DNA of 64,000 nt from Pseudanabaena sp. FACHB-2040 (GTDB taxonomy: Bacteria; Cyanobacteriota; Cyanobacteriia; Phormidesmidales; Phormidesmidaceae): NCBI RefSeq assembly GCF_014696715.1, contig NZ_JACJQO010000017.1, positions 124,001-188,000 on the forward strand, in the 5' to 3' direction. How positions within the stretch are numbered: position 1 is the stretch's first letter; each line of letters starts with the position of its first letter. Shown one piece after another: positions 2,897 through 5,449 of this stretch. The notes under the pieces are model-generated. The model was not told the DNA's origin and made no database searches. It saw only the letters and a list, made by a program, of their open reading frames with translations. The position numbers were made by a program, and so were the translations under genes.

Positions 2897-3346
2897 CTAT
2901 CCCCGATTCTTGATATTCATCACCTGCACAATCTGCAGGGCCATGTCGCCCGGAATTTCCAGAATTCGGTACAGATCGTCGAGGAAAGACTGTTCCTGGG
3001 GCGCGACTGTGCCATCGGAGAGCACTAAGTCAGTGGCGATCGCAAAGGCGGTTTCTCGCAGATCTTGGGGCAGAGATTGTTTGGCTAGGGCGATCAGCTC
3101 GCCCGGGCCATACTGCTTTAGCATCACCAACAGCTTGTCAAACATCCGATGCATCACGTCGGCAGAGTAGCTGTTAAAGAGCTGCATTCGAGAAAGGGCC
3201 AGGGTCATTTCCTGGCCTTCTTGTTCTGAGAGGTAGCCGTCGGCTGCGATCGCAACTAGAGCCACACAAGCAAAAGATTCTGCCGCACTTAAACTCACCG
3301 CTGCCGGTTTGACTTCGGTTTCGAAAACACCGTCTGATGGCCCCAT
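2897..3346 (-). CDS. TerB-family (tellurite resistance B-like) protein
   Basis: A 149-residue all-helical protein of the TerB fold. Signature segments are LVAIAADGYLSEQE near residue 31 and the second half-repeat ATDLVLSDGTVAPQEQSFLDDL near residue 105, acidic helix-loop-helix elements that bind metal in TerB structures. Stand-alone TerB proteins are common in cyanobacteria, usually without a ter operon, and there is none here. It converges on rsmG with a gap of about 30 bp. Family assignment is firm; the physiological role is unknown and tellurite resistance should not be assumed. Confidence 0.8.
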   Translation of the reverse strand: MGPSDGVFETEVKPAAVSLSAAESFACVALVAIAADGYLSEQEGQEMTLALSRMQLFNSYSADVMHRMFDKLLVMLKQYGPGELIALAKQSLPQDLRETAFAIATDLVLSDGTVAPQEQSFLDDLYRILEIPGDMALQIVQVMNIKNRG

Positions 3347-3463
3347 AAGCTATCCTCTAACATCGCTAATACATCTTGCCTCAATTCTCTAGGCGCGCAA
3401 TGAGGTTTTGAAGAGACTTTACAGCCTAGCTGCGGGCAGTTTTCGGCACATTAAGATGAGCTT

Positions 3464-3775
3464 TTAGGCAGCGTTTCACCCAGCCCAAGACTGAGGTAAG
3501 GCTTGGCAAAGGTTGCCAACTCGTGTGCGTTGGTTCACCTCGACTAGGGGCAACCTGCTTACTAAAGTGCCTTGCTAGAAGCAGCCTCAGCAATTTAAAG
3601 GCCTGCTACTACAAGCGGTCAACTGGGTGTGATCAAACTCACACGTGGCTGTGACCAAAGTCCTGTTGCTGCGAAGGGCTTTTACGGATACTTAAGAAGA
3701 CTCAACTCTAGCCGAGTCATCTACAGGGAACACACAACCGACCGACAGACCTTCGGGATTCCTGTCGGTTTTTTA
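3464..3775 (+). ncRNA. Candidate structured non-coding RNA ending in a terminator
   Basis: This gap between two minus-strand genes has no convincing reading frame but dense pairing on the plus strand. TTGGCAA/TTGCCAA (3503-3509 with 3513-3519) forms a perfect hairpin that competes with AGGTTGCC/GGCAACCT (3510-3517 with 3549-3556). GGTCA/TGACC (3617-3621 with 3652-3656) encloses GTGTGA/TCACAC (3627-3632 with 3639-3644). GACTC/GAGTC pairs at 3699-3718. An intrinsic terminator ends the stretch, with no plus-strand gene before it. A weak -10 (TAAGAT, 3452-3457) would start it near 3464. I could not match it to tmRNA, RNase P or SRP RNA. A 6S-type or novel RNA is possible. Confidence 0.42.
3741..3775 (+). 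terminator. Rho-independent terminator, plus strand
   Basis: ACCGACAG (3741-3748) pairs perfectly with CTGTCGGT (3762-3769), and the loop contains a CC-TTCG-GG cap. A run of T residues (3769-3774) follows. No plus-strand protein gene precedes it since rsmG ended 870 bp earlier, beyond the convergent TerB gene, so it most likely ends the candidate RNA upstream. Confidence 0.85.
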
Positions 3776-3817
3776 TTGCTCTTTTTCGAGATCAGATTTG
3801 AGGTCAGGCCCTTCTGA

Positions 3818-4453
3818 TCAGCGCATCGCTGACATCGTGTTTTTCCAGGTCAACTCCCGACAAAGGACAGTTAAGGCTCGCTGGTCAGCTCCCTGGAAAA
3901 GCCCACTATCGATTAGTTGGGTTAGCACCTGCTGGGCCAGCTGCGTAGCAAAGGTGCCGCCCGATCTCAGCAGCTGACTGTAATAGGAAAACTGAGGCTG
4001 GCCCTGAGGGCTCAAGTGAAAGCGGTACACCTCTTCTCCGCTCATCTGATAAACCGGCGTATTCACAGGCACCACTGCCCTGGGAATACCGTGCCAGCCG
4101 TGGCAGGTGCCGTCATCAAGCTCCAGAGTGCCAATCAGAACGACGCCCAGCAGTATGCGGGTTTCCTGCACCAGATCGGGTGTAAACAGCGGGTCGGGTT
4201 CGCTAGAGAGGCGAGGGCCGCTATTGAGAAACATGGGGTTAGACAGCTGCGAGTTGTAAACCAGGCCCACAGCCCAGTGCCGATTCTCATTCTCTAAGCT
4301 GACAAACTGGCCAAAGCCAAAGTCTTCAGCACAGGGCGGGGCAGAGACATCCTGCTGATCATCGACCTGCACCACATAGTCATGGTGAGAGTTGGATTTG
4401 ACTACTTTGCCAATACGGCAGCGCTGCGGTGTTGCCTGATCAAACAGATCCAT
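3818..4453 (-). CDS. HAS-barrel domain protein, conserved in cyanobacteria
   Basis: A 211-residue protein. Its N-terminal 90 residues match the HAS barrel (HerA/ATP-synthase N-terminal beta barrel): GKVVKSNSHHDYVVQV, then FGQFVSLENENRHWAVGLVY. The remainder is not recognised. HAS barrels in HerA and F1-ATPase mediate oligomer contacts, but the motor ATPase domain is absent here. The start at 4453 is supported by a strong Shine-Dalgarno (GGAGG, five bases before the ATG). It lies downstream of apcD on the same strand, separated by a terminator, so it probably has its own promoter. Function unknown. Confidence 0.65.
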   Translation of the reverse strand: MDLFDQATPQRCRIGKVVKSNSHHDYVVQVDDQQDVSAPPCAEDFGFGQFVSLENENRHWAVGLVYNSQLSNPMFLNSGPRLSSEPDPLFTPDLVQETRILLGVVLIGTLELDDGTCHGWHGIPRAVVPVNTPVYQMSGEEVYRFHLSPQGQPQFSYYSQLLRSGGTFATQLAQQVLTQLIDSGLFQGADQRALTVLCRELTWKNTMSAMR

Positions 4454-4557: not shown

Positions 4558-5043
4558 CTATGACATTGCCTGGATCAGGAAGTCAAAGTAAGGCCGAGCT
4601 TCACCCGCATCGTCATCAGAGAGTAGGCTGAGGGAAGCCTCTTTGAGACAACGAATGGCCTCAGCCATGCCAGGGACAGGCACGTTGAGCGCGTTGTACA
4701 TTTCTCGCACCCCAACAATGCCGATGCTCTCAATCGGACCACTGTTGCCAGCTAGCACACCGTAGGTGATCAGGCGCAGGTACCAGCCATAGTCTCGAAT
4801 GCACAGAGCCCGCTGCTTCTGACCATAGGCATTGCCACCAGGGGCGATGAAGTCAGGACGGCGTCTCCAGAGCTCTTTGCTGGCCTGATCAACGATTTTT
4901 TTCTCGTTGTCTGCCAATGTGGTGGCGATTCGCATCCGCTGGTCGCCGGTCTTTAAATAGTCTTCAATCGTCTTGAGCTCGCCGCTGGTAGGGTAGCGCA
5001 GCTCATCGTCGGCGTTGAGAATTACTTGGCTAACGACTGACAT
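4558..5043 (-). CDS. apcD: Allophycocyanin alpha-B subunit ApcD
   Basis: A 161-residue phycobiliprotein. It is one of the terminal emitters of the phycobilisome core, passing excitation to photosystems and important for transfer to PSI. The opening [20 protein letters not shown] is characteristic of ApcD rather than ApcA (MSIVTKSIVNAD). The chromophore cysteine lies in [12 protein letters not shown], close to the usual Cys81. The frame is open for 31 more codons upstream (to 5136), but that extension is unrelated to the family and the conserved N-terminus begins at 5043. The gene stands alone, as apcD usually does outside apcABC, and ends in its own terminator. About 400 bp of upstream sequence on this strand could hold its promoter. 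Confidence 0.95.
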
Positions 5044-5449
5044 AGTTTTTTGATGACCGCGATGACACTGTATCAACGATAGTTTAGCGACTTCAGGGCA
5101 CCCAAGAAAAGCGCCTTTCTCATCTAAACGCTTCAACGCTTACTTTTGTTGGGCCAACTACGTCCCTACTAAAAAGCCGATTTCCGGTTTTCTACGGGGG
5201 GTTTGGCTATTTATCTAGAGAGTTGTTAACTGAATGAGAAAGGGGTTTCTTTTGTAAAGAATTTGAAACATCTTTCAAGCCACAGCGTTACCCATCGCCG
5301 CCGCAATCACTACAGGTGCGCTAGATCAGCAGCACTGGGGCAATTAGCAAAGAGCATTAGAGCTGTGGAATGAACCCAGTAGAAAAAAACACCACAAACT
5401 CAACCGAGATTGCTAGAGTCAGAGACTGGACTGACGCGGGGCATGGGCA

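Follow-up and report, generated by a model that had tools for sequence, protein, structure and literature searches.

Positions 3699-3775 of the window (the whole stretch of 64,000 nucleotides analysed here, part of the cyanobacterial contig G000:C17) most probably encode a free-standing, trans-acting small RNA (sRNA) of about 77 nt that would be activated by the cAMP receptor protein (CRP) and would act by base pairing with the leaders of target mRNAs. This element is a smaller and different regulatory RNA than the one proposed in a sequence-only reading of the same DNA, in which the full interval 3464-3775 was taken as a candidate structured RNA with alternative pairing. Conserved, apparently unnamed and equipped with CRP boxes, the sRNA would offer a testable post-transcriptional branch for the cAMP-CRP regulon, and comes with a covariance model (R1) and a concrete predicted target. 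Its features are as follows, G001 being the nearest relative, from the same genus:

3628-3643, plus strand: predicted CRP box 1, TGTGATCAAACTCACA; a perfect TGTGAN6TCACA centred at -63.5, 100% identical in G001
3650-3665, plus strand: CRP-like box 2, TGTGACCAAAGTCCTG; centred at -41.5 (class II position), 7/10, degenerate here
3687-3692, plus strand: -10 box GATACT; CATACT or CATAAT in relatives, conserved in alignments, 100% identical in G001
3699-3775, plus strand: sRNA gene of about 77 nt, bounded by the predicted start and the terminator; based on covariance model R1 and homologs
3699-3718, plus strand: 5' stem-loop; GACTC 3699-3703 with GAGTC 3714-3718, or alternatively ACTC 3705-3708 with GAGT 3714-3717
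3711-3735, plus strand: predicted pairing region GCCGAGTCATCTACAGGGAACACAC; near-invariant, 25 contiguous pairs with a same-genome mRNA leader
3740-3775, plus strand: intrinsic terminator; stem 3740-3770 plus T run

Extent, sequence and folding of the sRNA gene

The position of the -10 box sets the predicted start at 3699. The gene contains a 37-nt block, GACTCAACTCTAGCCGAGTCATCTACAGGGAACACAC, that is near-invariant in at least 115 cyanobacterial contigs, and the segment GGGAACACA was identical in 59 of 59 aligned sequences. The consensus of the aligned homologs reads (G/A)ACT(C/G)AACT(C/T)TAGCCGAGTCAT(C/T)(T/A)A(C/T)AGGGAACACAC, followed by a spacer that varies and by the terminator, CCGACAG/CTGTCGG plus T run. 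Folding of 3699-3775 yielded two small hairpins and a z-score of -2.0. At the 5' end, the inner form of the hairpin (ACTC/GAGT) is complete in 55 of the 59 aligned sequences and the outer form (GACTC/GAGTC) in about half of them. The terminator stem is retained in 95% of cells, with a loop of variable length, and a T run follows it in nearly all homologs. Covariation in the 5' stem, a check proposed in the sequence-only reading, proved weak because the sequence of this region hardly varies, and the argument thus draws on the conserved sequence and architecture instead of compensatory change. A small protein was also considered and rejected, the RNA having no start codon and length changes among homologs breaking the frame.

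The stems at the centre of the earlier proposal lie well upstream of this gene. The complementary letters are indeed present, 3503-3509 (TTGGCAA) matching 3513-3519 (TTGCCAA) and 3510-3517 (AGGTTGCC) matching 3549-3556 (GGCAACCT), but both stems are broken in G001 and unconserved, which does not support a functional structure at 3503-3556. The spacer that holds them (3464-3627) is 52-66% identical to G001, and its folding did not stand out from shuffled sequences (z = -0.57 for 3464-3627 and -0.46 for 3490-3560). Nor did the full interval fold better than shuffled sequences, since 11 of 100 shuffles of 3450-3775 folded equally well (z = -1.14). The terminator at 3740-3775, described as having no gene before it, was confirmed, as was the lack of a preceding protein gene on its strand. 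The idea of a regulatory RNA thus holds for the one that ends at this terminator, where conservation strongly backs it, and fails for the extent and the stems originally assigned to it. Mutually exclusive pairing, unconserved at 3503-3556, does occur within the conserved RNA, where 3714-3718 can pair with either 3699-3703 or 3705-3708.

The same reading had mentioned a 6S-type RNA, which would bind RNA polymerase and with which an intergenic, structured RNA ending in a terminator would be compatible. This identity is scarcely credible, as the genome's own 6S RNA is located elsewhere (C22:205737-205922, 90.6 bits), RF00013 had no match here at the gathering or a relaxed threshold, and the RNA, with its 77 nt and two small hairpins, lacks a long interrupted rod. 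More generally, the Rfam scan called for earlier returned none of the Rfam 15 families in the window at the gathering score, and none at a relaxed threshold.

Distribution and conservation among cyanobacteria

Database comparisons revealed a match to the sRNA region in 37 of 59 related genomes, nearly all of them limited to about 90 nt (ca. 3688-3778). Conservation, the other check suggested at the outset, was therefore strong over these positions and absent, outside the genus, before ca. 3628. Identity to G001 reached 100% at 3628-3643, 3687-3698 and 3699-3739, the last two forming a single block (3687-3739). A pattern scan of named genomes identified at least 115 contigs with the sRNA (Leptolyngbyaceae, Nodosilinea, Nostoc, Calothrix, Fischerella and others), and several genomes among the pattern matches listed carry two to five tandem copies. 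With covariance model R1, 50 of 386 genomes matched, 48 of them strongly, and these were spread across the phylum; the own genome contains a single copy (88.3 bits, E 2e-18). Judging from these genomes, the sRNA has been kept by many filamentous cyanobacteria and by some others, including many non-heterocystous lineages such as Leptolyngbya and Nodosilinea. No phage-borne copy was found in viral contigs.

Two tandem arrangements may be mentioned separately. In Cyanomargarita calcarea (L133:2025-3316), five copies occur in tandem, every one with its own CRP box. At another locus (L036:1248-1583), two divergent copies in tandem differ in their 5' stem sequences, each of which still folds into a hairpin (GACTCA/TGAGTT and GACTCAG/CTGGGTC), and share the GGGAACACAC that follows.

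Locus and neighbouring genes

The candidate interval is flanked by a TerB-like gene (2897-3346, minus strand) and a conserved gene with no assigned function (3818-4453, minus strand), beyond which lies an apcD-like phycobilisome gene (4558-5136, minus strand). The product of 3818-4453 is conserved in cyanobacteria, matches neither Pfam nor NCBIfam models and is often encoded beside apcD and the sRNA. Across 116 sRNA loci, apcD is frequently downstream and convergent, either directly or behind a gene of the 3818-4453 type, and on the upstream side a divergent purL-like gene is common. No conserved co-directional downstream gene emerged from the comparison of these loci, as would be expected of a free-standing sRNA and not of a leader element.

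A conserved stem followed by a terminator may look like an attenuator, and the RNA could in principle be a cis-acting leader of a neighbouring gene. We regard this as highly improbable, given that in the window, as in most relatives, the downstream gene points towards the RNA, that tandem copies mostly have their own promoter box, and that neighbouring genes change from one genome to another while the RNA persists. Conserved promoter boxes, a terminator, convergent neighbours and tandem copies are instead the properties of a free-standing unit. No sRNA targets were found among the genes adjoining the sRNA gene.

Promoter organization and probable link to CRP

The sRNA appears to be switched on by CRP, as suggested by the organization of its promoter. 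At the fixed position of box 1, a score of at least 8/10 was obtained in 106 of 113 non-redundant homologous promoters, against 0.4% in shuffles, and the box is one of only four perfect TGTGAN6TCACA sites in the 6.28-Mb own genome. Another of these perfect boxes (L181:1501-1516) is found upstream of a gene for a cytosine-permease-like transporter. Box 2 is weak, yet its TGA-N6-TC core is conserved in position across promoters, and in two relatives lacking box 1 (L038 and L054) box 2 is itself a perfect CRP box. Most tandem copies of the sRNA have their own box 1. The same TGTGAN6TCACA consensus was reported in a survey of cyanobacterial CRP sites, along with a spacing of about 22 bp from the site to the -10 box downstream (PMC2633013). 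The boxes at -63.5 and -41.5 agree with the arrangement of a CRP regulon member, that is, a box at an activating position and a -10 box ca. 22 bp downstream, the distance from box 2 to the -10 box being about 21 bp.

A candidate regulator is available, as the own genome encodes a SyCRP1-type CRP (G000:C19:262971-263672) that is distinct from its NtcA and whose closest NCBIfam model is the cAMP-activated CRP (71.5 bits versus 39.4 for NtcA). Its predicted recognition helix reads RETVTR, similar to the RETVGR of E. coli CRP. A SyCRP1-type CRP was detected in 47 of the 48 genomes with a strong sRNA match versus 62 of 338 other genomes, an association that is confounded by phylogeny, and many CRP-bearing genomes have no sRNA. 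In one genome of the phylum sample (G154), the sRNA is present and no SyCRP1-type CRP was detected at E 1e-50; this genome may serve as a natural experiment on loss of the regulator.

The boxes could alternatively be read by the nitrogen regulator NtcA, which is also encoded in the own genome and whose relaxed motif, GTN10AC (quoted in PMC6166021), fits GTGAN6TCAC as well. Such control seems very unlikely, because the preferred NtcA site is GTAN8TAC, while ca. 95% of homologs have GTGA as the half-site and complete TGTGA/TCACA halves, which correspond to the reported cyanobacterial CRP consensus, are recurrent.

Predicted targets and proposed mode of action

The target search covered the leaders of ca. 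2,000 predicted starts (2.45 Mb of own-genome sequence), with 60 shuffled segments as controls. The best duplex with the exposed segment of the sRNA reached -33.0 kcal/mol, a value as low being found with 0 of 60 shuffled controls. The corresponding site, GTGTGTTTCCTGTAGATGACTCGGC (around G000:C12:64672-64696), can pair with sRNA positions 3711-3735 through 25 contiguous pairs, one of which is G-U; with a longer segment, the duplex was computed at -49.8 kcal/mol, or about -32 after opening costs. This is the only site of such quality in 2.4 Mb of the own genome, and it lies ca. 16-40 nt ahead of the start codon of the gene at G000:C12:64713, whose product looks exported and matches no Pfam or NCBIfam model. 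A chance origin of a 25-pair near-perfect complement right before a start codon is unlikely. Weaker pairing (-36.2 kcal/mol) is predicted for a paralogous gene on C19 (66% identical), where a related site is found equally far from the start codon.

Below the top hit (ranks 5-200), leader complementarity was no better than in shuffled controls. The target proteins are clearly recognizable only within this genus and so fail to account for the phylum-wide conservation of the sRNA; other targets must exist, but none emerged from the own-genome leader scan. One more candidate was set aside, a stretch of 15 nt fully complementary to the sRNA linker and located between genes for a sugar transferase and a HepA-like exporter (L241:1499-1514; G000:C22:145028): its chance expectation is estimated at ca. 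0.1, and it is absent from the two scorable homologous leaders, so that it is probably fortuitous.

The invariant linker might also be mainly protein-binding, the RNA titrating a protein instead of pairing with mRNAs. This alternative would account for a sequence conserved far more strongly than structure and for a leader complementarity that is not enriched globally beyond one hit, yet we hold it to be quite unlikely in view of the 25-pair near-perfect complement before a start codon, which is improbable by chance, and of the retention of much of this complement in the paralogous leader.

If the sRNA pairs with mRNAs, a mode of action can be outlined. When cAMP-bound CRP is active, the sRNA would most likely be transcribed from its two-box promoter, up to the intrinsic terminator. 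The exposed linker AUCUACAGGGAACACAC would then nucleate on a target leader just upstream of the start codon, and the duplex would spread into the 3' arm of the sRNA 5' stem. We infer that initiation would be blocked or the duplex cleaved, reduced translation and/or cleavage being the likeliest outcome for the two predicted own-genome targets, the paralogous genes for exported-looking proteins.

In the leader of the first target (L283:4616-4706; G000:C12), an sRNA-like sequence, AGTCATCAGGAA, is present upstream of the predicted sRNA-binding site and can fold onto it. Activation could occur if the sRNA displaced this partial imitation of itself from the same site. In a speculative and unlikely scenario, the sRNA family is the post-transcriptional arm of the cyanobacterial cAMP-CRP regulon and, at its best target, works by displacing the built-in stem formed by the internal imitation (AGTCATC.AGGAA), so that it could activate rather than repress.

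Comparison with known sRNAs

Among well-known sRNAs, enterobacterial CyaR and Spot 42 are transcribed under the control of cAMP-CRP through a TGTGAN6TCACA box. The present sRNA resembles them in its CRP-type box, short length, exposed pairing segment and terminator, and differs in its hosts, in its two CRP-type boxes at fixed positions and in the tandem copies of some genomes; we know of no sequence relation between them. In cyanobacteria, cAMP-CRP signalling has been connected with motility and type IV pili (PMC2633013), and no sRNA under its control is described in the searchable literature. A description of the present sRNA, by sequence fragments or names, was likewise not found in that literature, nor in Rfam 15; an unnamed entry in some published table of start sites is possible. 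By the features checked, it is neither 6S, Yfr1, PsrR1 nor NsrR1, and probably represents a new family of trans-acting sRNAs.

NsiR3, NsiR4 and NsrR1, which are nitrogen-regulated, are also cyanobacterial trans-acting sRNAs linked to a regulator of the CRP/FNR family, but the box found here is of the CRP type and not GTAN8TAC. In NsrR1, which spans ca. 112 nt and is conserved among heterocystous strains, the NtcA site overlaps the -10 box (PMC6166021); no GTAN8TAC occurs at the -10 box of the present sRNA. Like Yfr1, the latter is short, widely conserved in cyanobacteria and provided with an invariant unpaired motif; the Yfr1 motif, CACUCCUCACACC (PMC4734099), is absent from 3699-3775, where the motif is AGGGAACACAC. 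PsrR1/SyR1 is another conserved cyanobacterial trans-acting sRNA and acts at ribosome-binding regions, but it is ca. 131 nt long and located in the fabF-hoxH spacer, in contrast to the TerB-like gene and apcD that neighbour the present gene, and its 5' primer sequence, ccgagggcatatctaggagaac (PMC2662882), is absent from the sRNA. Finally, NsiR1 shares the occurrence of a cyanobacterial sRNA family in tandem arrays. Its copies form a direct-repeat array upstream of hetF and are tied to heterocyst differentiation, whereas the copies of the present sRNA retain CRP boxes and are located near apcD.
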